Below, piece by piece: positions 33,001-58,076 of a stretch of 64,000 nt of DNA. Numbering within the stretch: position 1 is the stretch's first letter; each line of letters starts with the position of its first letter. Source of the stretch: Chryseosolibacter histidinae (GTDB taxonomy: Bacteria > Bacteroidota > Bacteroidia > Cytophagales > Cyclobacteriaceae); NCBI RefSeq assembly GCF_018598225.1, contig NZ_JAHESF010000032.1, positions 1 to 64,000 of the forward strand, in the 5' to 3' direction. The notes under the pieces are model-generated. The model was not told the DNA's origin, made no database searches, and worked only from the letters and a program-made list of their open reading frames with translations. The position numbers and the translations under genes were made by a program.

Positions 33001-33257
33001 TTGTAGAGATCAACGTGGTGGACAAGGGCATCGGCATGAGCCCTGAGTATTTGAAAAAAATATTATCGGCCGATCAGCCCATGTTGAAAAAAGGAACCTC
33101 CAATGAAAAAGGAACAGGGCTTGGACTGCTGCTGTGCAAACAATTTATCGAGCTGAATAAAGGAGAGCTTCACATCACCAGCATCGAGCATGTAGGCACT
33201 ACGTTCACGGTACTGCTGCCACTCAGTGTCCACCAGCCGGTTTCTTCTCACGCCTAA
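30033..33257 (+). CDS. Y_Y_Y-type two-component sensor histidine kinase
   Basis: 1074 residues. Signal sequence (the second Met, at 30051, gives a cleaner start MRLFLCLIILSACFL). Periplasmic Reg_prop beta-propeller repeats (about 40-680; repeated patterns such as DRDGLIWILTKASGLVVY, EDRDGIIWIGATGDVNKYD), Y_Y_Y domain (about 700-770), one membrane helix (about 785-806), coiled coil, HisKA with His851 in SILSHDLRSP, and HATPase with NALKFTSEG, DKGIGM and GTGLGLLLCKQF. It stops after the ATPase: unlike hybrid two-component systems of polysaccharide loci there is no receiver or AraC domain. No response regulator is adjacent. Ligand unknown; the architecture is typical of glycan sensing. Confidence 0.93.
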   Translation: MIEQANMRLFLCLIILSACFLISLPVSSQSLPKDIAFERVSIPGTIRSSQVTNIIQDDLGLIWLAGDGLYRYDGFKFRQYKEIGNNGAILDPQDILYLFYDKISCRLLLGTRRYGIVTYDYQSDQLALLPSQTEPPIINHIAQTSDGKIWAASFTSGLFHIERDTLKKVPGPQSQYPHPISIVAHGPTLYVGVQKKVMALEQGVVNDVIDLDWPGKDLPQHTFPTSVFIDRQKQLWVGTEKQGVLVYDLAGRKFVKHFPSSESPFFSKISGITQDRDGLIWILTKASGLVVYSMEQDRTLLLRKNPFSVKSISSDNCFSILEDRDGIIWIGATGDVNKYDRKQVKFRHIYHNPLNRISLTDNMVRGVYEDNDGKIWTGTDGGYINVIDLENETTTPIKVSPGGDSSLHVPLYITSFNDRIMLVGTPRGLLQYDRKTKKFSPFEPLWSETKGKNVRQIIRHQNNLYFIHSGSVFIHDLATGKTESFGNAGDPQAVNLTTLYLDDEQRLWAGSGKGISVYNSAARKFRFMPFRDLPSIANGSLLLVLSIQQVGNKLYVGTFNAGFWEVDISNIDAIPPPKKFYNRTGLPSNTVYATLPDDQGNLWLSTNNGLVRFDPRTERFVSFSISEGLQEEEFNRLAYAKTRTGQLIFGGINGINIFNPGEIEIEQENVVPEILSVSVQNPLAKDPVVSRITEIPDKLILDFEQNFVSIHFFIPHYKQPKRYTLFYKLESFEKEWKEVSNENNVTYANLQPGVYNFKLKTAGINGREHIVSLPIIIAAPYWRAWWFILLSVCVVAFLVMTIIRSYVRKAQYDRQRLEELLKMRTSEIEKSREELQILNQKKDLIFSILSHDLRSPLTTLKGFLGYLIDHAHEIPVEDLKKHAVSIRYSVTNSLDLIDNTLFWSLSQMGTIQYTPSTFALHHLFEKLRGLYQLTADKKRIPLSISCHEDIMLHGDENMIYVSLRNLVSNALKFTSEGNPVTITCKRRDDFVEINVVDKGIGMSPEYLKKILSADQPMLKKGTSNEKGTGLGLLLCKQFIELNKGELHITSIEHVGTTFTVLLPLSVHQPVSSHA

Positions 33258-44072: not shown

Positions 44073-46376
44073 CTACTTCAGCTCAAACGAGGCGCGCTGC
44101 CCGTCTTTTGAATTTCCGCCGATGAACACATTGAATTTACCAGGCTCTGTTCCAAACGTCATGTCGCGCCTGTAGAACGAAAGATCCTGTTGCGTCAATG
44201 TGAAAGTCACCTCTTTCGATTCTCCGGGTTGAAGCATGATCTTCTGAAATCCCTTCAGCTCTTTTACTGGGCGTGTCACACTGCCTACCACATCCTGCAC
44301 GTACAGCTGCACTACTTCTTCTCCTGCGCGCGTGCCTGTGTTTTTCACCTGGCACGTTACCGTAAGCTTATCTTGTGTGGTGATCTCATTTTTGCTGAGT
44401 TTCACGTCTCCGTAGCTGAAGGTGGTGTAGCTCAACCCATGGCCGAAGGGGTACAACGGATCGTTGCTCACATCCAGGTACCGCGACTTGTACTTATCGA
44501 GCATCTCTCCGCCATAGGGACGGCCCGTGGTCTTGTGATTATAAAATAACGGCACCTGACCCACATGCTGCGGGAAAGTAGCCGTGAGCTTACCTGAGGG
44601 ATTGTAGGTACCCAATAACACATCGGCTATGGCGTTGCCCGCTTCGGTTCCTAAAAACCATGTTTCAACAATAGCGTCTGCGTTGGCCTGCTCCCACGGA
44701 AGGGTCAATGGCCTGCCGTTCATCAGCACGATCACCAGCGGCTTGCCGGTATTCTTCAATGCCTTGAGAAGGTCGAGCTGTTTTCCGGGCAGCGAAATAT
44801 CGGCGCGGCTGGAGGCTTCACCTGTCATGCCCTGCGACTCTCCCACCACCGCGATCACCACATCAGATTTTTTGGCCGCTTCAACCGCTTCGCTGATCAT
44901 GGCTTCGGAAGACCGCTGATCGATCTCCAGATTGCCGCCATGGGTGTTCAATCTTTGAATGAGCACGGGGTCGTCTGTAATGTTGGCACCCTTGGCATAG
45001 TTGATCTGCAGGTGGCCTTGGCTATTTTTCAGTCCCTGGTCAACACTCACGGCCTGTTGCCAGTCGCCGGCACCGCTCCAGTTGCCGATCATATCACGCT
45101 GACTTCTGGCCAGTGGTCCTACCAGCGCAACGGAGGCGCCAGGCTTCAGGGGCAGCGCGTTATTGTTATTCTTCAGCAGCACAATACTTTTGCGGGCAAC
45201 GTCGCGCGCCGCCTCCCGGTATTCGTTCTTCATCAGCGTTTGTTTGGCGCGCTGCTCATCGGCATAACGGTAGGGGTCGTCAAAGAGGCCCAGCTTGTAT
45301 TTGGCCTCCAGGATACGCCGGCACGCCGCATCGATCTGCGTCACCACAATTTTTTTATCCTGTGTGAGCTTGCCCAGGTTATTGAGGTACACTTCACCCA
45401 CCATGTCCATATCGTTGCCGGCTTTTAAGGCATCGGCGGCAGCTTCATATTCATTGGCGCTCACGCCATGGGCCACCAGCTCGGTCAGGGATGTGTAATC
45501 CGACACCACCATACCCCTGAAGCCCCATTGCTTGCGCAGCAGGTCATTGATCAGCCATGAGTTGGCGGCAGCAGGGATACCGTTGATATCGTTGAACGAC
45601 GTCATCACGGTGGCCACACCGGCATCCACGGCAGCCCTGTACGGAGGCAGGTAATCCTGCAACATGGATCTTTCGCTCATGTCTACAGGATTGTAATCCC
45701 TGCCTGCCAGGGCTCCCCCATATAAGGCAAAATGTTTTACACACGCCATCACGGTGTTGTTCAGGGCAAGGTCGCCACCCTGGTAGCCCCGCACCATCGC
45801 TTCGGCTACACGCGATCCGTACCAGGTATCTTCACCGGCACCTTCTGCAATGCGGCCCCAGCGTGGATCACGGGCAATGTCTACCATGGGTGAAAATACC
45901 CAGTTGAGTCCATCGGCACTGGCCTCGTCTGCTGCAATGCGCGCGCTTTTTTCAATGGTGGCAAGATCCCAGCTGGCAGATAACCCCAGGGGTATGGGAA
46001 AAATGGTGCGGTGACCGTGAATAACATCGTACCCGAAAAGAAGGGGGATCTTCAGCCTTGTGTTCTGCACAGCCATCTCCTGAAGCTTGCGCACGGCCAC
46101 GGGTGTAAACGTATTGAACACACCGCCTACCAATCCTTTCTTGATCTTCTCCTCCACGTTCTCACTTACAATGGGTCCGGTTACATCAAAACCTACGGAG
46201 ACAAGATTGAGCTGGCCGATCTTTTCTTCCAGGGTCATTTTGCTCATCAGGTTGGTGATGAACTTGTCCATGTCTGGCGTGTTCATCGTCGATGTGATCT
46301 TCCTTTCCTGGGCCTCGACCGCAAAAGAGAAAACCACCATCAGGCAGATCGTTACATATCTTATTGTTTTAAGCAT
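44073..46376 (-). CDS. bglX: Periplasmic/exported GH3 beta-glucosidase
   Basis: 767 residues, signal peptide ending AVEAQ (about 23). GH3 N-terminal barrel, (alpha/beta)6 sandwich and fibronectin-III-like C-terminal domain. Nucleophile Asp293 in GMVVSDYTSL; other motifs: KMTLEEKIGQLNLVS, SPMVDIARDPRWGRIAEGAGED, CVKHFALYG, and AVVGESQGMTGEASSR. The FnIII part has DVKLSKNEITTQDKLTVTCQVKNTG. It is the last gene of the polysaccharide locus and would release glucose from oligosaccharides cut by the GH144-type enzymes; BglX-type GH3s are known to act on beta-1,2 and other linkages. Confidence 0.93.
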   Translation of the reverse strand: MLKTIRYVTICLMVVFSFAVEAQERKITSTMNTPDMDKFITNLMSKMTLEEKIGQLNLVSVGFDVTGPIVSENVEEKIKKGLVGGVFNTFTPVAVRKLQEMAVQNTRLKIPLLFGYDVIHGHRTIFPIPLGLSASWDLATIEKSARIAADEASADGLNWVFSPMVDIARDPRWGRIAEGAGEDTWYGSRVAEAMVRGYQGGDLALNNTVMACVKHFALYGGALAGRDYNPVDMSERSMLQDYLPPYRAAVDAGVATVMTSFNDINGIPAAANSWLINDLLRKQWGFRGMVVSDYTSLTELVAHGVSANEYEAAADALKAGNDMDMVGEVYLNNLGKLTQDKKIVVTQIDAACRRILEAKYKLGLFDDPYRYADEQRAKQTLMKNEYREAARDVARKSIVLLKNNNNALPLKPGASVALVGPLARSQRDMIGNWSGAGDWQQAVSVDQGLKNSQGHLQINYAKGANITDDPVLIQRLNTHGGNLEIDQRSSEAMISEAVEAAKKSDVVIAVVGESQGMTGEASSRADISLPGKQLDLLKALKNTGKPLVIVLMNGRPLTLPWEQANADAIVETWFLGTEAGNAIADVLLGTYNPSGKLTATFPQHVGQVPLFYNHKTTGRPYGGEMLDKYKSRYLDVSNDPLYPFGHGLSYTTFSYGDVKLSKNEITTQDKLTVTCQVKNTGTRAGEEVVQLYVQDVVGSVTRPVKELKGFQKIMLQPGESKEVTFTLTQQDLSFYRRDMTFGTEPGKFNVFIGGNSKDGQRASFELK

Positions 46377-46403: not shown

Positions 46404-48404
46404 TCAATTTTGAAATCCCAGCTTATCCATCGCCACCTGCACTTCAGGTGCCGACATAAACAGGTTCCACAGCAGACCGGTGCGGTGATTCTCCATCATT
46501 ACAACGATAGGTCCCTGGTCAATCGCGAGGTATGAATTGGCTGTCCAGCCCTGGGTAATATTATAGGCGTCGTAAAAACCGTACGGTCCCCAGAGACGGT
46601 CGCCCAGCTTGTAGTAAAAGAATTTGAGCGCTTTCATAGACTGCTCCGGTGAATAGGGAAACGACGATAGCGCGGCCGTTGGCGTGATCACGCCCAGGTC
46701 GTTGGTGGGCGAATGCGCGTCGTACCCTGATGGGTTGTCACTGGCCGTGAGTCCCCAGCTCTCGTCACTGTACCCCGCGAACTTCTTCGGGTTGGCCACA
46801 CAATACGTATAATTGATCAGTGTGTGATTGACATTCTGCGTCCAGTAATTGGCGTAGGTGTCGCTGAGGTTGCGCGGATCGAGCCCCAGAAAAGAGTAGT
46901 GTGTAAAGAACAAGGGGCCGCCATAATCACTGCCCAGCGGCAACGTGATGTCATAAAATTTCTTTCCGTTTTTGATCAAACCATTGTTCGCCCAGCCTTT
47001 GTGGTATACGGAAGCATTGATAGTATGTGTAGGAGAAGCTGCAGCCAGGAAATACGTGATGAGGCATTCGTTGTATCCCCTGATCTGGTGATTCATGATC
47101 CACTGCTTGTCCGGCGACCAGTGCCAGTACAATACATCCTGTCCTCCGCGGGTATACCAGTCCCATTCAACGGTCTGCCACAGCGCGTTGATCCTGTCGA
47201 TCAATGCCTGCTCAGCGGCGTCTGCTCCATTCAGGTATTGGCGAAATGTGATAAGCCCTTCCATCAGGAAAGAAGTTTCCACCAGGTCTCCGCCGTTGTC
47301 ATTGGTGCCGAAGGGAATGACGTCACCGGTGTTGCCGTTGATCCAGTGCGACCATGCGCCATGAAACCTGTCGGCCGTCTCCAGGAAATCGAGTATCTTA
47401 TCAAGGCGCTCAAGGCCTTGCTGGCGTGTGATGAAATTTCTTTCGATGCCCACGATAATGGCCAGGATGCCAAAGCCCGAGCCGCCACTGGTAACGAGAT
47501 CGCCGGATGTATTCCGCTCACGAGCCATACCACTGGCGGGATGGGCAAAATCCCAGAAATATTTAAAGGTTTGTTGCTGAACCAACGTCAGCAGCGCTTC
47601 GTCTGATATCACAGGAAAATCAGGCGTTGGGTCCTGCGCTGTGTAGAACTTCCGGGTATAGTGTGTAAGCGCTTCACTGTTTGCGCCTTTCACTTCGCCA
47701 GACATCACCAGCAGGTATTGCGAAAGATCCCTGAGCTTCTGCGTCAGTGTGATGGTGAGCTTCGAATTTTGTTCTGATAACACCAGCGAAGACGGTACTA
47801 CACCATTCGCTCCGTTCACATACACGTTCTGCGAAATGATGGTTGCCGGCGCAACAGGTTCTGAAAAGGTTATCTCAATTTTGGTGTTTTCCAGCGAAAC
47901 GTCAGCGATGAGCGCTGAATTCAGCGCCGGAGTGCCTGCTATCGTCAGCGACTTGATCTCAAGAACACCTGGCACGGTGTAGAATTCGGTGGTGAAGTCT
48001 GGAAATGTTTCTTTGCCTGCGCCTTTGAGCTCTTTTGAAATGGACAGCACGTACGTTTCATTGGCCTTCAGTTCTGCGCCAGGCTGCGCCACAATGGTTT
48101 TATCGCTATCCTGAAAAGAAAAGGTCAGCGCAACAACTTCGCCTGTGCTTTTAACTTTCAACTGAACCGCCTGAGCAGCTTTGGTAACATCAAGCACATC
48201 GCTGAAAAGAATAAAGATAGGTTTGTCTGTGGGCGCTGCTGTATTCTTCGATGGATCGGTCAGATCGAGGGCGTAAGTTCCTACGCGAATGGTGGTAAGC
48301 TGAAGCTTTCCGGCTGCAGGCTCATCCGGTTCATTATCGCATGCGCCGAGGGCCAGGCAGGCGAGCAGAAAAGCAACTGCATAATTTTTTAATTGTGTTA
48401 TCAT
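46404..48404 (-). CDS. Glucoamylase-family (GH144-type) surface lipoprotein with Big_5 domains
   Basis: 666 residues from ATG 48404 (MITQLKNYAVAF); the frame extends to 48467 but a signal peptide begins only here. Lipobox LGAC with Cys22. Two bacterial Ig-like (Big_5) domains (about 35-250; LTDPSKNTAAPTDKPIFILF and ENTKIEITFSEPVAP) and a glycoamylase-like catalytic domain (about 270-666; FKYFWDFAHPASGMARER, GFGILAIIVGIERNFITR, QTVEWDWYTRGGQDVLYWHW, DQGPIVVMMENHRTGLLW). The family's studied member (Chitinophaga, GH144) is an endo-beta-1,2-glucanase. A paralogue is encoded at 56.7-58.1 kb. Gap to GH3 27 nt. Confidence 0.88.
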   Translation of the reverse strand: MITQLKNYAVAFLLACLALGACDNEPDEPAAGKLQLTTIRVGTYALDLTDPSKNTAAPTDKPIFILFSDVLDVTKAAQAVQLKVKSTGEVVALTFSFQDSDKTIVAQPGAELKANETYVLSISKELKGAGKETFPDFTTEFYTVPGVLEIKSLTIAGTPALNSALIADVSLENTKIEITFSEPVAPATIISQNVYVNGANGVVPSSLVLSEQNSKLTITLTQKLRDLSQYLLVMSGEVKGANSEALTHYTRKFYTAQDPTPDFPVISDEALLTLVQQQTFKYFWDFAHPASGMARERNTSGDLVTSGGSGFGILAIIVGIERNFITRQQGLERLDKILDFLETADRFHGAWSHWINGNTGDVIPFGTNDNGGDLVETSFLMEGLITFRQYLNGADAAEQALIDRINALWQTVEWDWYTRGGQDVLYWHWSPDKQWIMNHQIRGYNECLITYFLAAASPTHTINASVYHKGWANNGLIKNGKKFYDITLPLGSDYGGPLFFTHYSFLGLDPRNLSDTYANYWTQNVNHTLINYTYCVANPKKFAGYSDESWGLTASDNPSGYDAHSPTNDLGVITPTAALSSFPYSPEQSMKALKFFYYKLGDRLWGPYGFYDAYNITQGWTANSYLAIDQGPIVVMMENHRTGLLWNLFMSAPEVQVAMDKLGFQN

Positions 48405-48428
48405 GGGTATCCGCAGCCAATAGAAAGA

Positions 48429-48458
48429 GAAGGTTTCCAGGTTCTCCCGGAAACCTTC
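48429..48458 (-). promoter_or_regulatory. Intercistronic hairpin between lamG-type gene and GH144
   Basis: GAAGGTTTCC and GGAAACCTTC form a perfect 10-bp stem with a 10-nt loop, 25 nt before the GH144 ATG on the minus strand. No T run follows, so it may be an RNA-processing or stability element setting the ratio of upstream (SusCD-LamG) to downstream enzymes. Confidence 0.5.
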
Positions 48459-48497
48459 CAAAAACAAAATTAACTAACTAAGATCCTTTTGACCGGC

Positions 48498-49793
48498 TTA
48501 AGGTTTTCCTGAGTTGTACATCAGGGTGATCTCGGCGGCAGTCAGCGGTCTGTGCCACACGATAACATCATCAAGAGAACCTTTGAAATGGTTCGCGCTG
48601 GCCAGGTCATAACCACCCCATGGCTCTGCATCCCACATGGTGCCCGCGCGCGATTGTACAAAACCAAAGGCAAGCTCGTTCACTACATCGGGTGCTACAC
48701 CATTGTACTTCAATCCGGTAACATAAGCTTTGTTATCTTTTACGCCCTGGTCGTTGGTCCACAGGTTGAAATCGAACTCGCGCATCAACTCACCATTGGC
48801 GTAATAGTAGCCGTGCTTGGTTGTGCCGTTGTACACGAAAACAATGTTGACCCATTTATCCTTCAGCATGGTGGCCGGTCCGCCGGTGGCTGTGAGGTCT
48901 TTGGTGAAAAGGAAACCTTTCCATCCGCCGTTGTCCTTGTTCTTGCCATCACCTTTGAATTCGTTGTCTTCTGCTGCCCATCCCACTGTTCCGTTGTTAT
49001 TATACGTATAACCTACAGGCATCTTCCAGCCAGCGTATCCGCCCAGGATCTCGAATTGGAAACCATAGAACGCTCCCAATCCCATCACGAAATGTCCTTT
49101 GTCAGGGTTATCGGTATGCGGTGTCGGTTTTGCCCAGAAGCTCATTGTGAAGTCGCTGGTCTTCATCAGGTTGTCGCCATTGGAGACCTCGATGATACTG
49201 GTGGTTCCGTTAAATACAGCGGCTTTGCCCGAAGCAGCATTGTGCGACGCACCGTATGTAATGGCTACGATCTGATTGGCTGTGGGGTCATAATTGCCAA
49301 CCACGTCGTTGGCGTTGTCTTCAAAGGTCCACTGCGCTATGGCACCAGGAGGTGCAAAGGTACCTTCTGATGTGAAGTTCCTTTCAATTGCTTCCTTGAG
49401 TGTTTTACCGCCTGTGCTCTTCAGACCCGCATCGAACTTCAGAATGTAGAGTGTTCCGGTGCCGAAGTTGTCATTGGGATCTATGGTAACAGTTGCGCCA
49501 TCTACAGTAATGGTAGTAGGAACAACGGCATTGTCGTATTGACGGGTTAACGTAATAGAACCTGTGCTGGAAGCATCAACGCCTGTTGAGAACGTCGCGG
49601 TGATCGGCGAAGCTACCGGTACTCCTGTTGCGCTTGTGGCGCCGTTCAGATCAGTAGTGCCTGCTGTCAGTGAAGTAAGGGTCAAAGCAGGGGGCTCGTC
49701 ATCATCGCAACTCACCGTCATCAGCGAAACAGTAGCGAGTAATGCCACTGCCAGCAACGTGTTAAGGATAAAATTCAATTTTTTCATGTTCAT
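48498..49793 (-). CDS. LamG-type surface lipoprotein with Big_5 domain
   Basis: 431 residues; lipobox with Cys29 (VSC) after a signal peptide. A Big_5 domain (about 35-140) and a concanavalin A-like/laminin-G_3 domain (about 150-431; GAIAQWTFEDNANDVVGNYDP, FTMSFWAKPTPHTDNPDKG, LKDKWVNIVFVYNGT, GSLDDVIVWHRPLTAAEI). It stands just after susD, the place where surface glycan-binding proteins are encoded in these loci, so a glycan-capture role is likely (inference). No catalytic residue is evident, so it is not called an enzyme. An alternative start is Met3. Confidence 0.85.
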   Translation of the reverse strand: MNMKKLNFILNTLLAVALLATVSLMTVSCDDDEPPALTLTSLTAGTTDLNGATSATGVPVASPITATFSTGVDASSTGSITLTRQYDNAVVPTTITVDGATVTIDPNDNFGTGTLYILKFDAGLKSTGGKTLKEAIERNFTSEGTFAPPGAIAQWTFEDNANDVVGNYDPTANQIVAITYGASHNAASGKAAVFNGTTSIIEVSNGDNLMKTSDFTMSFWAKPTPHTDNPDKGHFVMGLGAFYGFQFEILGGYAGWKMPVGYTYNNNGTVGWAAEDNEFKGDGKNKDNGGWKGFLFTKDLTATGGPATMLKDKWVNIVFVYNGTTKHGYYYANGELMREFDFNLWTNDQGVKDNKAYVTGLKYNGVAPDVVNELAFGFVQSRAGTMWDAEPWGGYDLASANHFKGSLDDVIVWHRPLTAAEITLMYNSGKP

Positions 49794-49838: not shown

Positions 49839-51344
49839 TTATTGATCCCAGTTGGGGTTTTGTGCAATCCGTTTTTGTGTGAGGTCAACCTCGATCTGAG
49901 GTATGGGAAGCAGCTCGTGTTTTCCGGCGATGAATCCAAGCGGTCCGAGCACCGTTGCTGCACGGTTGGTGCGAACAAGATCCCAGAAACGATGTCCTTC
50001 CATGGCCAGCTCATGCCTGCGTTCGTTGAAAATTATTTCGTCAAGCGCGGTCTTGTCTGTTGTAACGATATCAGGCAGTGCCGCGGGATTTCCTGCCCGC
50101 GCGCGCTCACGCACATCGTTCAGGTATTCCAATGCCTGTACCGGTTTATTATTCTTATTGAGAACCTCCGCAGCCATCAACAGCACATCGGCATACCGGA
50201 TGAGGCGCCGGTTATGGGCAAACTGTGTCGGAACATTGGTCCCTTTTGTCCACACTTTCTGGTTATAGCATTCTATCTCGATAAGGTTTCCCTGCGCATC
50301 TTTTGTTTCATCGGGCGTCTGACCGTCGCCGACAATGGCGATGTCGTCTATGACTTCTCCCAGGAAAATAACGGTTGCTTCGAGGCGGGGGTCGCCGGGT
50401 TCAAAGGAACGTTGCAGGTCGAGCGACGGCCTGTTGAAGCCCCAGCCCCTGTTGGGCGTTCCGCGTACACCCTGCACGTTGGCATACTGGTTTCCTCCGT
50501 TCTCTATTTGTTCGTACGGAAGAGCGCCTATTTCGAAGATCGATTCGGCGCCGTGTACACCTGCTTCACTGTTGGCGTCGGCAAAATTGGGCATCAGCGA
50601 GTACTGTGTCGAGCTGATCACCTCCATCAGATACTTTTCAGCATTTTGTGTGTCACCCTGAAACAAGTAGACCTTTCCCAAAAGGCTTTTGGCCGCACCT
50701 TTGGAAGCCCGGCCAAGGTCACCGGGGGCATATTCGGATTTTTCAGGCAACGATTCGATCGCCGAAAGCAGGTCTGCCCTGATCAGCTCGTAAACTTCCT
50801 GCACCGACGCCCGTGTCAGTGTAGTGGAAGGTGTTGTTGTAGTGACGAGCGGAACACCTCCCCACGCTCTCACCATATCGAAATAAAACAACGCCCGCAG
50901 GAACTTCGCTTCTCCGATATACCTGGCTTTAAGCGTTGCATCCATGGAGATCAGAGGTACTTTTTCAATCACCACATTGGCGCGTTTCACACCTTCATAG
51001 AGCGTGCTCCACCAGCGGCTCACATTTCCTTCTGTAGGGATATGCCGGAACCTGTCGTAAGGCCCCACATCGGCGGCTCCGTCGTCAGGATTGCTTCCCT
51101 TCCGTGCGTCGTCTGACATGATATCCAGAATAGGAAAGAGACCCTGGTGAAAGGCATTGGTGCGCATGATATTGTACACGCCATTGGTTGCCAGCAAAGC
51201 ATCACTGGCCGTCACGGGAAAGCTCTCCTGCGTGAGCTTGCCTTGCAGGGGTTTTTCGAGAAAATCGCTACACCCTGCAACAATGATCCATAAAAAAGCA
51301 AGCGTAAAAGCTGTTATCGATTTCATTGTGTTATACTTTTTCAT
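49839..51344 (-). CDS. SusD/RagB-like lipoprotein of the glucan locus
   Basis: 501 residues, lipobox VAGC with Cys25; Met7 is an alternative start. Typical SusD motifs: SDFLEKPLQGKLTQESF, SRWWSTLYEGVKRANVVIEKVP, AKFLRALFYFDMVRAWGGVPLVT, DLGRASKGAAKSLLGKVYL, NRRLIRYADVLLMAAEVLN, DVRERARAG, and EIIFNERRHELAMEGHRFWDLVR near the C-terminus. Canonical SusD type, unlike the two SusD-like_2 proteins at 7-14 kb. Follows SusC by 12 nt. Confidence 0.94.
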   Translation of the reverse strand: MKKYNTMKSITAFTLAFLWIIVAGCSDFLEKPLQGKLTQESFPVTASDALLATNGVYNIMRTNAFHQGLFPILDIMSDDARKGSNPDDGAADVGPYDRFRHIPTEGNVSRWWSTLYEGVKRANVVIEKVPLISMDATLKARYIGEAKFLRALFYFDMVRAWGGVPLVTTTTPSTTLTRASVQEVYELIRADLLSAIESLPEKSEYAPGDLGRASKGAAKSLLGKVYLFQGDTQNAEKYLMEVISSTQYSLMPNFADANSEAGVHGAESIFEIGALPYEQIENGGNQYANVQGVRGTPNRGWGFNRPSLDLQRSFEPGDPRLEATVIFLGEVIDDIAIVGDGQTPDETKDAQGNLIEIECYNQKVWTKGTNVPTQFAHNRRLIRYADVLLMAAEVLNKNNKPVQALEYLNDVRERARAGNPAALPDIVTTDKTALDEIIFNERRHELAMEGHRFWDLVRTNRAATVLGPLGFIAGKHELLPIPQIEVDLTQKRIAQNPNWDQ

Positions 51345-51356
51345 TTCCGGCTTTGA

Positions 51357-54344
51357 CTAGAATGTGAGATTAAGGCCTAAAGAATAAATGGCAGAAACGG
51401 GATATGTACCCGCATCAATTCCGGTGTTCAAAGAGCTGACGCCTGACTGATTTCTGTCGAGGGGGAAACCGACCTCAGGAGAATAGCCCGTAAAATCGGT
51501 GATGGTGAACAGGTTGGTGCCACGCACATACACGCTGGCCGCATTCATTTTCATTTTTGTCAGCAGGCCCGCCGGCAGTTTGTAAGAGAGCGTTACGTTT
51601 CTCAGGCGGAAATAAGAGCCATCCTGCACAAAACGTGTAGAAGGTAAAAAGTTATAACCTCCGATGCTCGCTTTCGGCTCGGTCTGGCTTGTACCTTCTC
51701 CCCTCCAGCGGTTGGCCACGTGTTGTTCGAAATTATACATCTCCACACGCACGGTCTCCTTTTCGTTGTAGATCTTGTTTCCGCTCTGACCCTGGAAATC
51801 GAATGACAGGTTAAAGGATTTAAAACCCGCCTCGAGGTTCAACCCATAGAGGAATGTGGGAATGGGCGAGCCGATGTAAGTACGGTCGTCGCTGGTGAGC
51901 GCATTATCAGGATTAACATCTTTAAACCGGAGATCACCCACACCGGCGTCCGACCTGTGCGGATAGGCATCGAGCTCCGCCTGGTTCTGAAAAATGCCAT
52001 CCACCACATAACCATAGAACGATCCTATGGGCCGGCCTACCGATGTGGCCGTGGTGCTGTTGGCATTGAATAACTTATCATTCGGATCTTTTGATCCAAA
52101 TACATTGAGCACTTCGTTGTGTATCGTGGTGCCTACGGTACCGATCCTGTAGCGGAAACCATTCCACTCGCTTTCCCATGATACGTTGTATTCAAATCCT
52201 CTGTTCAGGACTTCCGCAGCATTGTAGGTAATTGTTTTCCCCACACCGTTACCGAGATATCCGGGCACCGGCAGGTCGATCAGGATATCTTCCGTGGTTT
52301 TGTGAAAATAGTCCAGCTCAATGTTCAGGCGGTCATCGAAGAATCCCAGCTCAACGCCGGCATCGATCTGTTGGGTCTGCTCCCAGCGCAGGTTCTGATT
52401 GCCCGACTCGCCATAGGTAGATCCCGGATACAACGTTTCATTCTGACCAAACACGGCACCCACGCCGTTCAGCACGCCGGAATATTGCCTGTCATACTTC
52501 GTCTTCTCATTTCCTACGATACCCCAGCTGGCCCTCACTTTGAAATTGGAAAGCTTGCCCACATCCTGCATAAAGCCTTCGTTGATCACATTCCATCCAA
52601 TGGCAAGCGAAGGGAAATTGGCATAACGGTTCTTGCTGATGAATTTCGACGATCCATCTCTCCTGAAAGTGGCTGTGAAAAGATACCGGTCATCAAAGGT
52701 GTAGTTCGCCCTGAACAGGTACGACATCATCGAAAAGTAGTTATCGAGAAGCACCTCATTCTTCACACGGCCTCCATTGATGTTATCCGGATTGATGTAC
52801 CACAGGTCTTCATCGTCACGAAGGATGTTCTCACCCACCACTTCCATTTTTTCAGTGGTCGACTCCTGCATGGTGTAACCGGCCACGGCGCTGATCCTGC
52901 TCTTGCCTAATTGTTTGTTGTAGCTGATCGTATTCTCCCACAGCCAGTTCGCACGGTCTTCGAACAACTTGGTAAGATCGCTCGTTGAATTCTCCTGCTG
53001 TGCGTTCACGAAGAACTGAGGCGTGTAGCTCCTGTTCTTCTTGTATTCCACATCCACACCGAAGCTCGTGCGCAGTGTAAGACCTTTCAGGATGTCCACC
53101 TCTCCGAACACATTGCTCACAGAGCGGATCACATTGTCGAAGTTGTTGGTGTACTCGATATCAGCCAGCGGATTGCCAACGCCCGGCACCGGTGAATAGC
53201 TGCCATCAGGCTGCCGCGGCGCAATGGTAGGTTGCGCACGGTATGCGTTGAATGCCGCATTGATGTGTGTGTTCTGCTGCTTGAAAGGTGTAAAGCTCAG
53301 GTTGCTTCCCACACGAACGGCGTCGCCCAGCCGGTAAGTGTTATTGAACCGCAAAGTTACACGTTCGTAGTTCGATTTGGGGATGATGCCCTCCTGGTTG
53401 AAATAACCCAGGCCCAGGTAGTACTCCATTTTTTGGGTCGATCCGGTTACGGAAACCTGGTAGTTCTGGATGGGCGCTGATTGAAACACCTGATCCTGCC
53501 AGTCGGTATTGGGCACCGCGTCAACGTTGTTATAAGAACCAGGCCTCAGCTCGTTGGCGATGATGGCAAATTCACGGCCGTTTAACAGGTCGATCTTTTT
53601 CTGCAGCTGCTGAATGCTGTATTCGGCAGAGACGTTGACCGACATGCCTTCTTTGCCGGGGGTGCCTCTTTTGGTGGTGATGAGCACCACGCCGTTGGCC
53701 CCGCGCGATCCGTAGATGGCCGTGGCAGAAGCATCTTTCAACACTTCAACGGATTGGATATCGGCGGCATTCAGGTAATTGATGTCACTGAGGATCACGC
53801 CATCAACCACAAAAATAGGGTCGGCATTGTTGAAGGTACCAACACCTCGCACACGTACAATGGGCCCCGCACCGGGAGCGCCTGTATTGGTGGTGATCTG
53901 AACACCGGACACTTTGCCCTGCAACGCCTGCATTGGCGAAGCAGCCGGGATCTTTGTAAGGTCTTCTCCCCTGACAGAAGAAACCGCACCGGTCAGATCC
54001 GACTTCCTTACTGTTCCATATCCGATGACCACCACTTCTTCCAGCATTTGCGAGTCGGTTTCCAGCACAAGATCGATAGTGGTACGCTCGCCAACCGCAA
54101 CTTCCTGTGTTTTGTATCCTACAAACGAAAAGATCAATGTGGTTTCAGACGGCGCCAGCTCAAGGCTGTATTGCCCCTCAGCATCCGTTGCGGTTCCTTT
54201 ATTGGTGCCTTGTACCACCACGCTAACGCCAGGCAAGGGCAGACCATCCTCAGAGGAAGTGACCTTCCCGGTAACGGTACGGACCTGCGCCATCACCATC
54301 GCTGGTAACAGCGTGAACATCAGATAAGTAAAAACTCTCCTCAT
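51357..54344 (-). CDS. SusC/RagA-type TonB-linked transporter of the glucan locus
   Basis: 995 residues. Signal peptide ends VMAQ (about 19); carboxypeptidase-regulatory-like domain (SSEDGLPLPGVSVVVQGT); plug with the SusC region VRVRGVGTFNNADPIFVVDG and ATAIYGSRGANGVVLITTKRG; beta-barrel ending IYSLGLNLTF. It imports the oligosaccharides made at the cell surface. Start of an operon running susC-susD-lamG-GH144-GH3; a 244-nt leader region upstream separates it from the regulator gene and holds two direct repeats. Confidence 0.95.
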   Translation of the reverse strand: MRRVFTYLMFTLLPAMVMAQVRTVTGKVTSSEDGLPLPGVSVVVQGTNKGTATDAEGQYSLELAPSETTLIFSFVGYKTQEVAVGERTTIDLVLETDSQMLEEVVVIGYGTVRKSDLTGAVSSVRGEDLTKIPAASPMQALQGKVSGVQITTNTGAPGAGPIVRVRGVGTFNNADPIFVVDGVILSDINYLNAADIQSVEVLKDASATAIYGSRGANGVVLITTKRGTPGKEGMSVNVSAEYSIQQLQKKIDLLNGREFAIIANELRPGSYNNVDAVPNTDWQDQVFQSAPIQNYQVSVTGSTQKMEYYLGLGYFNQEGIIPKSNYERVTLRFNNTYRLGDAVRVGSNLSFTPFKQQNTHINAAFNAYRAQPTIAPRQPDGSYSPVPGVGNPLADIEYTNNFDNVIRSVSNVFGEVDILKGLTLRTSFGVDVEYKKNRSYTPQFFVNAQQENSTSDLTKLFEDRANWLWENTISYNKQLGKSRISAVAGYTMQESTTEKMEVVGENILRDDEDLWYINPDNINGGRVKNEVLLDNYFSMMSYLFRANYTFDDRYLFTATFRRDGSSKFISKNRYANFPSLAIGWNVINEGFMQDVGKLSNFKVRASWGIVGNEKTKYDRQYSGVLNGVGAVFGQNETLYPGSTYGESGNQNLRWEQTQQIDAGVELGFFDDRLNIELDYFHKTTEDILIDLPVPGYLGNGVGKTITYNAAEVLNRGFEYNVSWESEWNGFRYRIGTVGTTIHNEVLNVFGSKDPNDKLFNANSTTATSVGRPIGSFYGYVVDGIFQNQAELDAYPHRSDAGVGDLRFKDVNPDNALTSDDRTYIGSPIPTFLYGLNLEAGFKSFNLSFDFQGQSGNKIYNEKETVRVEMYNFEQHVANRWRGEGTSQTEPKASIGGYNFLPSTRFVQDGSYFRLRNVTLSYKLPAGLLTKMKMNAASVYVRGTNLFTITDFTGYSPEVGFPLDRNQSGVSSLNTGIDAGTYPVSAIYSLGLNLTF

Positions 54345-54480
54345 GATAGATTTTCTGAATTGGCTGTGATCCTTCCAGATTCAGTTCATCAAATTAGAGA
54401 GAAGGCTGATTTTTGGGGAGATATTTTGTTTAAAACTGGCCTTTTACGGGGTCGATTTGCCGAATTCTCCCGCGAAGTTT

Positions 54481-54497
54481 TTGCGGAAGAAAAACAT
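54481..54497 (-). promoter_or_regulatory. Direct repeat 1 (TTGCGGAAGAAAAACAT) upstream of susC
   Basis: First of two 17-bp copies that differ at one base, spaced 66 bp apart. About 140 nt upstream of the susC ATG. Candidate operator for the adjacent regulator or another activator; no other copy was noticed by eye in the window. Confidence 0.4.
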
Positions 54498-54546
54498 TAT
54501 TTTCAAACGATTGCTGCGGGAATTCAGGGTATTGGTGCCTTCACTT

Positions 54547-54563
54547 TTGTGGAAGAAAAACAT
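54547..54563 (-). promoter_or_regulatory. Direct repeat 2 (TTGTGGAAGAAAAACAT) upstream of susC
   Basis: Second copy. Each copy also has GAATTC 13 or 21 nt before it (54462 and 54520), so the similarity extends beyond the 17-mer with a spacing shift. The 54345-54588 gap contains no gene; a plus-strand open frame across the repeats (54360-54599) is judged fortuitous. Confidence 0.4.
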
Positions 54564-54588
54564 GGCGTTCCAGACCTTCCATTTTACC

Positions 54589-56511
54589 CTAGCCGATGAG
54601 GCCGTCTTCGAGCACTTTATGCCGGGTGTCGTGCCCTTTTTGATGGGGTTCATAAAAGAGGATGATCTCTTCCCAGCGTGATGCCGTGGGCCGGTTCCCC
54701 TTCTTTTCAAGCTCCTGGATACGCTCCGTCACCTTGTGCTTGAAGCCCCAGACGGTATTTACGCGCAGGTTCAGCTGGTTGGCCAGCGCCTCCAGGGTGT
54801 AATCCTTTTTTCCGGTCACAGCCAGATAGGCGATATAAAAAGCCTTTTCAATGGGGAATTTAATGCTGTGGAAGATCGTAAAAGCAGTGATCGACTCATT
54901 ATAGCCGCATCGGGTACACCGGCGGGCAAATTTCTGGGCGCCATCGAAGTATTTCTCGTTCTCACATTTGCGGCAATGGAATGCCTTCTCCCATTTCAGG
55001 TTCTCTAAAAACCGGTAACACGACAGCGCATCGGGGTACAACGTCTGGAACTGTTTGTAGTCCATCGTTTTCTCCATCAGCCGCTCGTTCAGCACCTCCT
55101 TCAGGCTGTTCTTCAGTTTCCAGTTGTCCAGGTCGAGCATGGAATTGATCTGGTTGATCTCCACTGACTGCCGGGCAAGTTTCTGATTGCTTTCCTCCAG
55201 CTGGCTGTTTTTGAGGTTGAGCTCGTTGGTGCGCTCGTTCACCTTGTCTTCGAGCTCGCGGGTGACCTTGTCTTTCAGCTGCATGTTCACCTCATGCTGG
55301 TGGATGATACGTTTCAGGGCCCTGTCACGCATATCTTTCAGGATCCTGATCCTGTCGCCCAGCGCGAACGTGAGGAACAGCATCTCCAAGGCAAAGCTGA
55401 AGTGAAGGCTGTAATGCAATGGCGTGGTAAAGGGCAGCACGTTGAAGTATACCAGTGTGCGAATGAAAAATCCGGCGAAGAGAATACCGTAAGCGATCAC
55501 AAAAAAGCGGGCAGGCCGGTAGCCGCGACTCCACACAGCGATGGCGGTGTAAAAGATCAGCGACAGGGGGATGATCTCGATGGTGCGCAGCGTGAGCAGC
55601 TGCGGGAACAGGAACAGCTCCATCACAAAAAATGCAGAACGGGCAATGATCATTCCTTTCAGCGCCCGGTCAAGCCCTGGTGCGTTGGCACGGGTGCTCA
55701 AAAATCTTCTGGTGAATATGAGGCCCCAGAGGATGACGGAATACAGCGTGATGCCTACCGCATAATTGTTCCATTCGGGATGGTTGGGCCACAGGTATTG
55801 GAAGCCGATGCCGTCGTAGCTCATGGCATATGCCGCAACGCTGAGAATGTACATGATGTAAAAGATGTTCTTGATCTCCCGGATGGCCAGGTACATCAGG
55901 AAATTATAGAGCGCAATGATCACGATCATTCCGTAAAATGTGCCGAACAGAAAATATTCGTTCAGGGCGTAATACACGAAGCGGTTCACCGACCTGAAAG
56001 CGATCCTGATATCGGCAAACTCGTGCGACCGCACGCGGAAATAATAACAGAGGGTAGTGTCTGAGCTCATATGCAGCACCACCTCAAAATTCTTGTGCAT
56101 GAAGGTGCGCTGTGTGAAGGGTTGCTGGTCACCCATGCTGATCTTTTTATACGAACCGGTTTCATCCGGGATGTAGGCATCGAGGTGATCGATGGTCTGG
56201 TCATAGAATTCGAGTAGCCAGACTTTGTCCGTAGATGTGGTATGCCTTAACGGGAACCGGATCCAGTACGAAGCATTGTTCCTGAAATCGGTGTTCTGGT
56301 ATCCCGAATGGCGCACAAAGTGATCGGCGAATTTCTGCGAAGTGATGTCTGCGAAGGTGAGCGTATTGGTGGTATCCGTGAGGATGGTGAGCTCATACGG
56401 CATAAAGTCGCGCTCGTTGATGGCATCGCTGACCTCCACAGGTTCCTGCGCGCATACCTGCCCCCCTGTGGAAAATCCCAGAATCAGAAAAATGGCCAAC
56501 CATCGCCTCAT
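54589..56511 (-). CDS. Membrane regulator: 7TMR-DISM sensor fused to an IS1595-type transposase zinc ribbon
   Basis: 640 residues. Signal peptide (to about 22); periplasmic 7TMR-DISMED2 domain (about 40-175; WIRFPLRH, LLEFYDQTIDHLDAYIPD); seven membrane helices (about 185-385, ending LTFALGDRIRILKD, the DISM hallmark); coiled coil (about 398-480); then a zinc ribbon with Cys513, Cys516, Cys532 and Cys535 (HCRKC and RRCTRCG) followed by ITAFTIFHSIKFPIEKAFYIAYL and a helix-turn-helix (571-594). The last block matches the N-terminal DNA-binding half of IS1595-family transposases; the DDE catalytic half is absent. Likely a ToxR-like membrane-bound one-component regulator of the surrounding glucan genes (inference). 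DISM proteins usually end in kinase, cyclase or HTH domains, so this fusion is unusual. Confidence 0.85.
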   Translation of the reverse strand: MRRWLAIFLILGFSTGGQVCAQEPVEVSDAINERDFMPYELTILTDTTNTLTFADITSQKFADHFVRHSGYQNTDFRNNASYWIRFPLRHTTSTDKVWLLEFYDQTIDHLDAYIPDETGSYKKISMGDQQPFTQRTFMHKNFEVVLHMSSDTTLCYYFRVRSHEFADIRIAFRSVNRFVYYALNEYFLFGTFYGMIVIIALYNFLMYLAIREIKNIFYIMYILSVAAYAMSYDGIGFQYLWPNHPEWNNYAVGITLYSVILWGLIFTRRFLSTRANAPGLDRALKGMIIARSAFFVMELFLFPQLLTLRTIEIIPLSLIFYTAIAVWSRGYRPARFFVIAYGILFAGFFIRTLVYFNVLPFTTPLHYSLHFSFALEMLFLTFALGDRIRILKDMRDRALKRIIHQHEVNMQLKDKVTRELEDKVNERTNELNLKNSQLEESNQKLARQSVEINQINSMLDLDNWKLKNSLKEVLNERLMEKTMDYKQFQTLYPDALSCYRFLENLKWEKAFHCRKCENEKYFDGAQKFARRCTRCGYNESITAFTIFHSIKFPIEKAFYIAYLAVTGKKDYTLEALANQLNLRVNTVWGFKHKVTERIQELEKKGNRPTASRWEEIILFYEPHQKGHDTRHKVLEDGLIG

Positions 56512-56693: not shown

Positions 56694-58076
56694 TTATTGG
56701 AGCCATCCTCCTGTAAAACCCGCCTTCTTCAGGCCCGCAACAATGTAGGGATTCTTCTTCATCAGGTTCCATACAAAACCGTTCCTGTGGTTCTCGATCT
56801 GGATCACGATCGGTCCCTGGTCTATGCCAAGATAATCTTTGTCTACCCAGCCTTTGGTGCCGTCCTTGTATTCGATCGTCATGTTGAAGGCATCTTTAAA
56901 ACCATACTGTCCATAAAGTTTTTCACCATGGCGGTTGTACATTTCTTCCAGCGCGGGAATGCAGATCTCCGGCGCAAAAGGGATCGATCCGCCCGCGGCC
57001 GTGGGGGCTATGGTGCCATCGTCCTGCAAGTAGAATTGTGACGCACCCCGAGCGTTGTATCCCTGGAAGGCGATGTTGGGGTTTCGTTTGTTGTCGTTGC
57101 CGGGTCCATCGCAGGCCGTCAGCCCCCAGACGTTCTCGCCGTAGCCAACAAATCCGGCGGCGTTGGTAATACAATATTGCCGGTTGGCGTAGGTAGCCCT
57201 GCGCGAATTCTCGAAATAGTCGATGCCCTTCTCCCGCATATATGCATCCTGAATGCCTTTGAAGTCGATGTACAGGTGTGAATACTGATGACCGAACAGG
57301 GGACCGAAGTTCACGTGCTCCTGGCCCTGGTAGGTTGCCCACTGGTATGTAGCAGTCCAGGCGTCCCAACTTCCCGCGGGAATGGTATGCGTAGGCGATC
57401 CGAATGCGAGCACATAAAGAATGTTTGCTTCATTATATCCCTGCCAGCGCGCGTTAATAAATCCCCGCCCCGGATGCCAGCCCATGCTCATGGTAGACTC
57501 GCCGTTCATGGCCCAGTCCCACTCCACAGCACGGTAAAGTGCATCGGCCAGGTCACGGATCTGCTTTTCATCGGCGGTATCCTGGTCGAAATAGGTTTGA
57601 CACGAGAGGATGCCCGCCATCAGCAGGCCGGTGTCTATTGTCGAGAGCTCAACTTCCTGAAACCTGAGGCCGGTCTTCTGATCGAGGAAATGATAAAAGA
57701 AACCTTTATAACCTGCCACACCTGACGTTGCATCGCCCTTGGGAAGGTCGTTGAGGAACTTCAGGGTCTTCAGCACCCTTTCTGTTGCCTGGGTGCGCGT
57801 GATGTATCCGCGTTCAACACCGATCAGGTACGTGGTGAGTCCGAATCCTGTGGCAGCGATGCTGGAGAAATTCTCGGTGGGCCAGCGATCGGGGATCTGT
57901 CCATTGTCAGAGTTACCCAGGTCCCAGAACCAGTTGAAAGTGTGACGCGAGAGTGAATCGAGTGAAAAAGCTTTCGCACCTGGTGGCGTGACGGAGGGTG
58001 GTGTTGTATAATTCTTTTTATCAGAGCACGAGAAGATGATGGTCAACAACAACGGGAGGAACAGGCAACGGCGCAT
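56694..58076 (-). CDS. Glucoamylase-family (GH144-type) lipoprotein, second copy
   Basis: 460 residues; signal peptide with Cys17 (FSC). Only the catalytic domain is present, without Big_5 domains: FNWFWDLGNSDNGQIPDRWP, GFGLTTYLIGVERGYITR, ELSTIDTGLLMAGILSCQTYF, AVEWDWAMNGESTMSMGWHP, GYNEANILYVLAFGSPTHTI, LGIDQGPIVIQIENHRNGFVW. Close to the studied GH144 endo-beta-1,2-glucanase in length and layout. It opens the locus upstream of the regulator; whether it shares a transcript with the regulator (182-nt gap) is uncertain. Confidence 0.9.
   Translation of the reverse strand: MRRCLFLPLLLTIIFSCSDKKNYTTPPSVTPPGAKAFSLDSLSRHTFNWFWDLGNSDNGQIPDRWPTENFSSIAATGFGLTTYLIGVERGYITRTQATERVLKTLKFLNDLPKGDATSGVAGYKGFFYHFLDQKTGLRFQEVELSTIDTGLLMAGILSCQTYFDQDTADEKQIRDLADALYRAVEWDWAMNGESTMSMGWHPGRGFINARWQGYNEANILYVLAFGSPTHTIPAGSWDAWTATYQWATYQGQEHVNFGPLFGHQYSHLYIDFKGIQDAYMREKGIDYFENSRRATYANRQYCITNAAGFVGYGENVWGLTACDGPGNDNKRNPNIAFQGYNARGASQFYLQDDGTIAPTAAGGSIPFAPEICIPALEEMYNRHGEKLYGQYGFKDAFNMTIEYKDGTKGWVDKDYLGIDQGPIVIQIENHRNGFVWNLMKKNPYIVAGLKKAGFTGGWLQ

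Follow-up and report, generated by a model that had tools for sequence, protein, structure and literature searches.

The 64,000-nucleotide stretch of Chryseosolibacter histidinae DNA analyzed here (the window) raises the question of what a membrane sensor joined to a transposase-type DNA-binding domain does in a glycan locus, and which DNA it might recognize. The gene lies directly upstream of susC and is codirectional with susC and susD, in agreement with the regulator position originally predicted for it. Its coding region had been placed correctly at 54589-56511, and the strand is corrected here to minus; the plus-strand translation of this interval contains several stops. The regulator gene and its neighbors are arranged as follows.

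54589..56511, minus strand: fusion regulator gene (640 amino acids; signal peptide, DISMED2, 7TM, coiled coil, IS1595 zinc ribbon-HTH)
51357..54344, minus strand: susC, TonB-dependent transporter (Plug, CarbopepD_reg_2), with the predicted target promoter
49839..51344, minus strand: susD (SusD_RagB, 113.9 bits)
48498..49793, minus strand: protein with Big_5 and Laminin_G_3 domains (Pfam)
46404..48467, minus strand: homologue of GH144 endo-beta-1,2-glucanases (Glycoamylase PF10091; 5gzh, E 1.8e-161)
44073..46376, minus strand: GH3 homologue (Glyco_hydro_3, 239 bits)
56694..58076, minus strand: second GH144-type gene, upstream of the regulator (PF10091; 8xul XCC2207, E 1e-155)

The presence of this susCD-GH144-GH3 locus beside the regulator suggests that the locus probably targets beta-1,2-glucan. 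In the available text of a paper on these enzymes, Chitinophaga pinensis CpSGL is the founding GH144 member and XcSGL is another (PMC12102758).

Pfam, NCBIfam, and AlphaFold2 bore out the predicted protein anatomy of signal peptide, DISMED2 domain, seven helices, coiled coil, and zinc ribbon-HTH, with the parts encoded as listed here.

56002..56391, minus strand: 7TMR-DISMED2 periplasmic sensor domain, residues 41-170 (Pfam PF07696, 102 bits)
55351..55959, minus strand: 7TMR-DISM_7TM seven-helix membrane unit, residues 185-387 (Pfam PF07695, 154 bits)
55072..55350, minus strand: cytoplasmic coiled-coil linker, residues 388-480 (AlphaFold2 model)
54901..55023, minus strand: IS1595-type zinc ribbon with four invariant cysteines, residues 497-537 (Pfam PF12760)
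54712..54861, minus strand: IS1595-type helix-turn-helix, residues 551-600 (NCBIfam NF033547; three helices in the model)

Cys513, Cys516, Cys532, and Cys535, as well as ITAFTIFHSIKFP, occupy the positions originally given for them, and the four-cysteine ribbon presumably binds zinc. The Zn_ribbon_IS1595 match of the window protein scored 25.4 bits, exactly the Pfam curated cut-off, and residues 551-600 aligned to positions 3-53 of the 215 in NF033547, the first quarter of the model alone, with a score of 26.6 bits versus a family cut-off of 75. AlphaFold2 modeled the whole protein (47 sequences) with a mean pLDDT of 86: a signal helix leads into a beta-sandwich and seven helices, after which a long coiled coil is followed by a compact domain at the C-terminus. 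In this model, one continuous helix (residues 368-480) runs from the last membrane helix into the coiled coil; pLDDT fell below 50 at residues 459-480, within this helix, and at residues 622-640. Modeled alone, the DNA-binding domain reached a mean pLDDT of 89.6. Based upon domain anatomy, DISMED2 is predicted to be periplasmic and the zinc ribbon-HTH cytoplasmic. The DISMED2 model resembles the RetS periplasmic domain 3jyb (Foldseek, E 9.5e-5), and a whole-protein Foldseek search returned human WLS and the RetS domain; the WLS similarity is read as shared fold only. For the whole protein, a sequence search found no relative of solved structure, and for the DNA-binding domain a profile search found none at E < 0.03; this domain also gave no significant Foldseek match, with a best E of 0.63 and mostly HTH proteins among the hits.

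The predicted IS1595 homology of the C-terminus was upheld by HMM matches to PF12760 and, in part, NF033547, and by comparison with stand-alone transposases and fragments from the same bacterial family. The latter gave E-values down to 3e-31 and, for the near transposases or fragments, 37-42% identity over ~130 residues (six matches), values that argue against chance similarity. All 47 members of one protein alignment (A1) matched the 7TM and DISMED2 models and 43 matched the zinc ribbon, and 28 of the 32 members of another (A2, which includes two transposases) matched the IS1595 transposase model. Judged by domain content, the window protein is not an IS1595 transposase, because the catalytic domain is absent; as predicted, there is no DDE part, the protein terminating ~40 residues past the HTH and matching NF033547 at positions 3-53 alone. 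IS1595-family transposases (PF12760, NF033547) have the same zinc ribbon and HTH, whereas the fusion lacks their DDE nuclease domain, is joined to a receptor, and occurs as one full copy in the window's genome at a conserved locus, the last two properties speaking against a mobile insertion sequence. We also built a FastTree phylogeny of the DNA-binding domain, in which 81 fused domains were compared with 46 other sequences from transposases, fragments, and a single stand-alone domain. The fused domains formed one group, with support that was moderate at best (SH-like 0.75 for the split, 0.31 for the re-rooted label), and its nearest neighbor was L259, a zinc ribbon-HTH of 137 residues that stands alone, followed by transposases. 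A single group fits one capture event, and the tree suggests that the DNA-binding domain was probably captured once from an IS1595-type element.

How widely the fusion occurs in Bacteroidota had been raised with the original prediction. Of 148 genomes sampled from the bacterial family of the window, at least 71, the window's own among them, contained full-length relatives, defined as matches reaching residue 590 or beyond; at least 59 of the 148 contained the window's clade (E <= 1e-100), and at least 12 more contained a distant clade alone. In a sample of 395 genomes across the phylum, with three candidates scored per genome, 11 genomes from four families had a full-length match at E <= 1e-40. 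When the C-terminal domain served as query against these 395 genomes, open frames of more than 400 residues were all fusions among the matches listed, and the remaining listed matches lay in frames of 343 residues or fewer. Genomic surroundings were taken for 80 of the 96 listed full-length matches besides the window's own (60 of 63 from the window's clade, 16 of 27 from the distant clade, and 4 of 6 from the phylum sample), retained from 572 confirmed stretches; addition of the window gave 81 aligned fusions. Genera represented by name in the 80 loci include Chryseolinea, Ohtaekwangia, Roseivirga, Fulvivirga, Echinicola, and Marivirga, all of them Cytophagales. Cys513, Cys516, Cys532, and Cys535 were invariant in all 81 fusions, and Lys556 and Thr586 (K556, T586) of the HTH likewise count as invariant positions. 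These sequence comparisons indicate that the fusion is old and widespread.

The link of these homologues to SusCD and glycan loci was strong. Overall, 51 of 81 loci had a susC gene on the same strand no more than 1200 bp downstream, as did 49 of 61 in the window's clade. GH144 genes were found within the fetched stretch in 49 of the 61 window-clade loci, and three of the 12 without one (L050, L090, L097) sit on contigs of 4-7 kb. Among the matches listed for the 148 genomes, GH144 (E <= 1e-60) was present in 57 of 59 genomes with the window's clade versus 27 of 89 without it (Fisher p 1.4e-17, in a test that ignores relatedness). In the distant clade (13 loci, L099-L111), both loci with scanned neighbors had xylan enzymes (GH10, GH43, GH115, and an esterase at L104; GH10, GH43, and GH67 at L106), and single loci of other subclades had GH30 (L094), GH2/GH5/GH3 (L113), or a chondroitinase-B-like protein (L116). 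We propose that paralogues took over other glycan loci, including those for xylan and those with GH30 or GH2/GH5/GH3.

A motif search of 51 gaps between the fusion gene and susC returned ATGTTTTTaaaGCGtnAAA, which occurs as direct repeats; from its sequence and placement, this repeat is likely to be an operator before susC. The region between the two genes (54345-54588), to which the original prediction had pointed for binding, contains the conserved predicted twin site.

54545..54563, minus strand: predicted operator, distal copy ATGTTTTTCTTCCACAAAA, with twin spacing kept in relatives
54479..54497, minus strand: predicted operator, proximal copy ATGTTTTTCTTCCGCAAAA, 66 bp from the distal copy and ending 134 bp upstream of the susC ATG

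Of the 49 gaps in which a site scored at least 10 bits, 39 had the second-best site 64-66 bp from the best and on the same strand; shuffles, which ignore kinship, gave a mean of 1.1 and a maximum of 5 such partners in 500 rounds. We also scored up to 20 kb per locus on both strands, using matrix counts that omitted relatives of >=60% identity. In 38 of 81 loci, the best match of the whole locus fell within 700 bp past the fusion gene, versus ~2% expected for 20 kb, in a test that is only partly blind because all sequences had contributed to the initial choice of motif positions. Among the 38, L107 has a weak and doubtful minus-strand match. In the other 43 loci the site was not the best match under the left-out matrix, and in the window itself a stretch inside susC outscored the operator site (17.9 vs 13.2). 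A further 46 loci of 3-22 kb (80 named loci minus 33 sharing sequence with training loci and one that was too short) included 26 in which the site was best in the locus, 20 in which it was not, and 30 with a partner 64-66 bp away; several of these loci are close relatives of each other, and the counts are uncorrected for kinship. The twin site with this spacing is present in Chryseolinea serpens DSM 24574 (L192) and Fulvivirga imtechensis AK7 (L197), and a twin site also accompanies the fusion-susC-susD-GH144 locus of Marivirga sericea DSM 4125 (L071). In the 8-Mb genome, the window's form of the site occurred with fewer than three mismatches at two places alone, both before this susC and 66 bp apart, and 14 further places had three mismatches versus 5 for a reversed control. 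At three loci where regulator and susC are divergent, we noted post hoc weak matches (2-6 bits) that are oriented toward susC and spaced by 66 bp. Sites in the xylan clade were weak or related; the close xylan-clade loci L102 and L104 have related sites 68 bp apart that score 10-11 bits. A motif search of 13 upstream stretches from this clade gave a GC-rich, coding-like pattern, which we rejected as an operator.

Does the site accompany the regulator when the two are unlinked, or persist when the regulator is missing? Three GH144 stretches came from genomes with a fusion gene that is not adjacent, and both of those containing susC had the top site of the locus before susC. In one (G036), the fusion lies ~0.52 Mb away on the same contig, and the susC site scored 21.6 bits with a second match 65 bp from it; in the other (G102), the fusion is on another contig and the site scored 14.1 bits. 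By contrast, 17 GH144 loci were sampled from the 27 genomes with GH144 but without the window's clade, and the operator site was never the best in the locus in the 16 with a recognizable susC. The highest scores among these 16 were 9.0 and 10.9 bits, the latter for a site at rank 2 in a locus (L285) with no trace of the fusion gene. Some clade-less GH144 genomes do carry the distant clade (G105, G108, G114, G143). At L063 and L065, where the fusion is unlinked to susC, no site ranked near susC.

Other regulators occupy some of the clade-less loci. In nine of the 16, a pair of genes encoding ~190-210 and 320-380 residues precedes a susC of 1119-1178 residues, compared with SusC proteins of ~1000 residues at fusion loci. 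Of five clade-less loci scanned, L269 and L282 contained an ECF sigma factor (accompanied by FecR at L269), L281 contained a propeller/Y_Y_Y/GerE regulator, and L271 and L274 had no recognized regulator among the scanned neighbors. ECF sigma/FecR anti-sigma control of PULs is found at GH144-susCD loci of related genomes, although it relies on separate proteins and accompanies the longer SusC.

The closest functional parallel appears to be SusR. In the available text of PMC3878776, SusR sits in the membrane, with its sensor in the periplasm and its DNA-binding domain in the cytoplasm. The direct repeats predicted there for SusR-like regulators are spaced by 67 or 77 bp and are read as binding dimers whose monomers occupy one face of the DNA at a distance of six or seven turns; for hybrid two-component regulators, the spacing averages 21 bp. 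The fusion and the SusR-like PUL regulators of Bacteroides, as described there, would share a periplasmic sensor, a cytoplasmic C-terminal DNA-binding domain, a link to susCD, and a predicted direct-repeat operator (64-66 bp for the fusion); they differ in that the fusion has DISMED2 plus 7TM as sensor and an IS1595 zinc ribbon-HTH as DNA-binding domain. A Pfam search detected no Reg_prop, Y_Y_Y, or GerE domain in the window protein, and we liken it to SusR by predicted topology and operator geometry rather than homology. The original description as ToxR-like holds for a membrane-bound one-component regulator and fails for topology and operator geometry, which resemble those of SusR. ToxR has a topology different from the periplasmic N-terminal, cytoplasmic C-terminal layout of the fusion.

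We propose that the fusion is a membrane-anchored, SusR-like one-component regulator of the beta-1,2-glucan locus, probably an activator, that acts as a tethered dimer on the twin site, and we assign this reading a probability of roughly 0.78. Short beta-1,2-gluco-oligosaccharides would enter through SusCD and bind DISMED2, and the signal would pass through the 7TM bundle and then the coiled coil. The zinc ribbon-HTHs of the coiled-coil dimer would bind the two ATGTTTTTaaaGCGtnAAA direct repeats before susC; a spacing of 64-66 bp corresponds to about six helix turns and would place both repeats on about the same DNA face. With its sensor occupied, the tethered dimer would activate the susCD-GH144-GH3 genes. 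A glycan ligand is plausible because DISMED2 matches the fold of RetS, which reportedly answers to mucin glycans; beta-1,2-gluco-oligosaccharides as the specific ligand are our guess from the neighboring enzymes. We infer activation rather than repression, and the position of the proximal site 134 bp before the susC start agrees with an activator. An operator geometry close to that of SusR suggests a tethered dimer reaching two sites six turns apart.

Several other readings of these data deserve consideration. The zinc ribbon-HTH is plainly transposase-related, and the fusion could conceivably reflect a recent IS1595 insertion at the end of a 7TMR-DISM gene, leaving a broken gene or an assembly artifact. 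We regard the chance of this as negligible, as the fusion recurs at 25-76% identity in many genera with its locus conserved, the full protein is single-copy in the genome, and the fused domains group apart from transposases. It is also conceivable, but quite improbable in our estimation, that the twin site belongs to another factor, for example one of SusR type encoded elsewhere, with the fusion being a linked signaling protein whose HTH no longer binds DNA. The predicted SusR-like repeats 67 or 77 bp apart have a similar geometry (PMC3878776, available text) and would suit such a factor. Against it, the 8-Mb genome has no further copy of the site at fewer than three mismatches outside the locus, the top site stands before susC in both unlinked cases and in none of the 16 clade-less GH144 loci, and the invariance of the zinc cysteines, Lys556, and Thr586 would be unexpected for a dead domain.

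A further alternative accepts that the fusion binds the twin site and changes its mode of action: it could be a repressor freed by glycan, or its DNA-binding part could be cut from the membrane upon signaling. The sequence leaves the sign of regulation free, and residues 459-480, with their low pLDDT, could be flexible or cut. We nonetheless consider this version unlikely, since the proximal site, which ends 134 bp ahead of the susC ATG, appears to occupy a position that suits an activator, and the coiled coil and six-turn repeat fit a tethered dimer of the kind proposed for SusR (PMC3878776, in the text available).

How much of this design is new? The original prediction named no described class of PUL regulator to which the fusion would belong. 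As a plan, a DNA-binding domain carried by a 7TMR-DISM receptor itself is already known; the available text of PMC8092284 describes proteobacterial 7TMR-DISM proteins with a ChiS-family DNA-binding domain. These receptors, like the fusion, carry their own DNA-binding domain, but in the account given there it is a cryptic HTH and the hosts are proteobacteria. RetS-type 7TMR-DISM histidine kinases share the DISMED2 sensor fold (3jyb) and differ in output, which is a kinase rather than the DNA-binding domain of the fusion. We know of no SusCD link for the ChiS-family proteins. As far as our searches extend, the transposase-derived DNA-binding domain, the SusCD tie, the predicted operator, and the exchange against sigma-factor control are new. 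Literature searches, in which subscription journals were mostly uncovered, returned nothing joining 7TMR-DISM with zinc ribbon and transposase or with polysaccharide utilization; nothing relevant, by title or start of abstract, on IS1595 or zinc-ribbon transposases domesticated for transcription; and nothing on sophoro- compounds with Bacteroides thetaiotaomicron, SusD, and glucosidase.

The operator might have come from the same mobile element as the regulator, with the captured domain still recognizing a site akin to the ancestral element end. If so, capture of a transposase fragment would have brought a regulator class and its binding site together, and both would then have spread with the paralogues over xylan, beta-1,2-glucan, and other Bacteroidota glycan loci. 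Three element copies from one genome (L250, L253, L254) carry a core, TTTAGGCGtAA, at their ends, and scored with the operator matrix, these six ends ranked in the top 0.01-0.6% of locus positions, although the copies are not independent and the register was chosen post hoc. Four element ends in L123 and L125 reached the top 2-8% alone, and the left end shared by three copies from another genome starts (G)AATTAGGCATTTTGAAAATGG, which does not clearly match the operator. Further elements of this kind turned up in 2 of 295 genomes searched, at 33-34% identity. Given the 2-8% ranks and the post hoc register, we set aside identification of the operator with an IS end as a lead and consider a joint origin doubtful.

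To our knowledge, DNA-binding domains of bacterial transposases have seldom been documented as parts of dedicated regulators. Here, a transposase domain sits on a seven-helix receptor, is kept across many genera, and is accompanied by a predicted operator, and the exchange of regulators is visible between related genomes. Three classes of SusCD regulators are named in the available text of PMC3878776 (SusR-like, hybrid two-component, and ECF sigma/anti-sigma), and the fusion would add a fourth membrane-linked class. The spacing of about six turns is near that predicted for SusR although the sensor and DNA-binding parts differ, which suggests that membrane-held regulators may follow a shared rule of geometry when they bind DNA. 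The locus also offers a way to learn which sugar is sensed by a DISMED2 domain, and we propose the fusion as the regulator for the beta-1,2-glucan loci of these bacteria.

GH144-susCD loci that lack a gene of the fusion clade, the clade of the membrane-sensor/IS1595 zinc ribbon-HTH protein encoded in the window, carry regulators other than the fusion (fetched loci L269–L285). The following regulators were found at three of these loci:

L269: ECF sigma factor and FecR
L282: ECF sigma factor
L281: Reg_prop/Y_Y_Y/GerE protein

A gene pair of sigma/FecR sizes precedes susC in 9 of 16 such loci, an assignment by size with a Pfam check in two. In the GH144 locus L285 (genome G105), one neighbor has the same size (about 1390 aa) as in L080; neither a fusion gene nor any remnant of one was found in this locus, and a single predicted operator scored 10.9 bits. 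It is possible that the regulator was lost there. As a separate observation, the window also encodes a 1074-residue protein (30033–33257) whose translation, on reading, resembles that of a propeller-type sensor ending in a histidine kinase.

Among the fusions themselves, those of L094–L097, L116, and L117 differ in the recognition helix, and a variant predicted site with the end [GC]CGTATnA was found with them. The best partner of this variant site in L095–L097 is weak and lies 52–53 bp, or about five turns, away. In several close relatives (fusion-susC gaps among L040–L054), AATCGTTTGAAAT or AAACGATTGCA adjoins the proximal repeat, as at 54498–54513 in the window. These sequences resemble LacI-type half sites, and a second regulator may act through them. 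A distant fusion clade (L099–L111; 27–29% identity) is surrounded by xylan enzymes in both loci scanned (L104 and L106).

The closest neighbor of the fused DNA-binding domains in the tree is not part of a fusion:

L259, 1197–1607: stand-alone IS1595 zinc ribbon-HTH of 137 residues, without a DDE domain

A methyltransferase gene lies nearby, and this stand-alone domain could be a free regulator or a remnant. Many frames of ~145 residues in G133, G071, G097, and other sampled genomes match the IS1595 zinc-ribbon model at positions 17–46 only, and probably represent an unrelated conserved small protein. Genomes G047 and G114 contain 13 and 12 equal-scoring copies, respectively, of IS1595-type zinc ribbons, and most of these copies lie in ~310-residue frames; IS1595-type elements have therefore multiplied within the same bacterial family.
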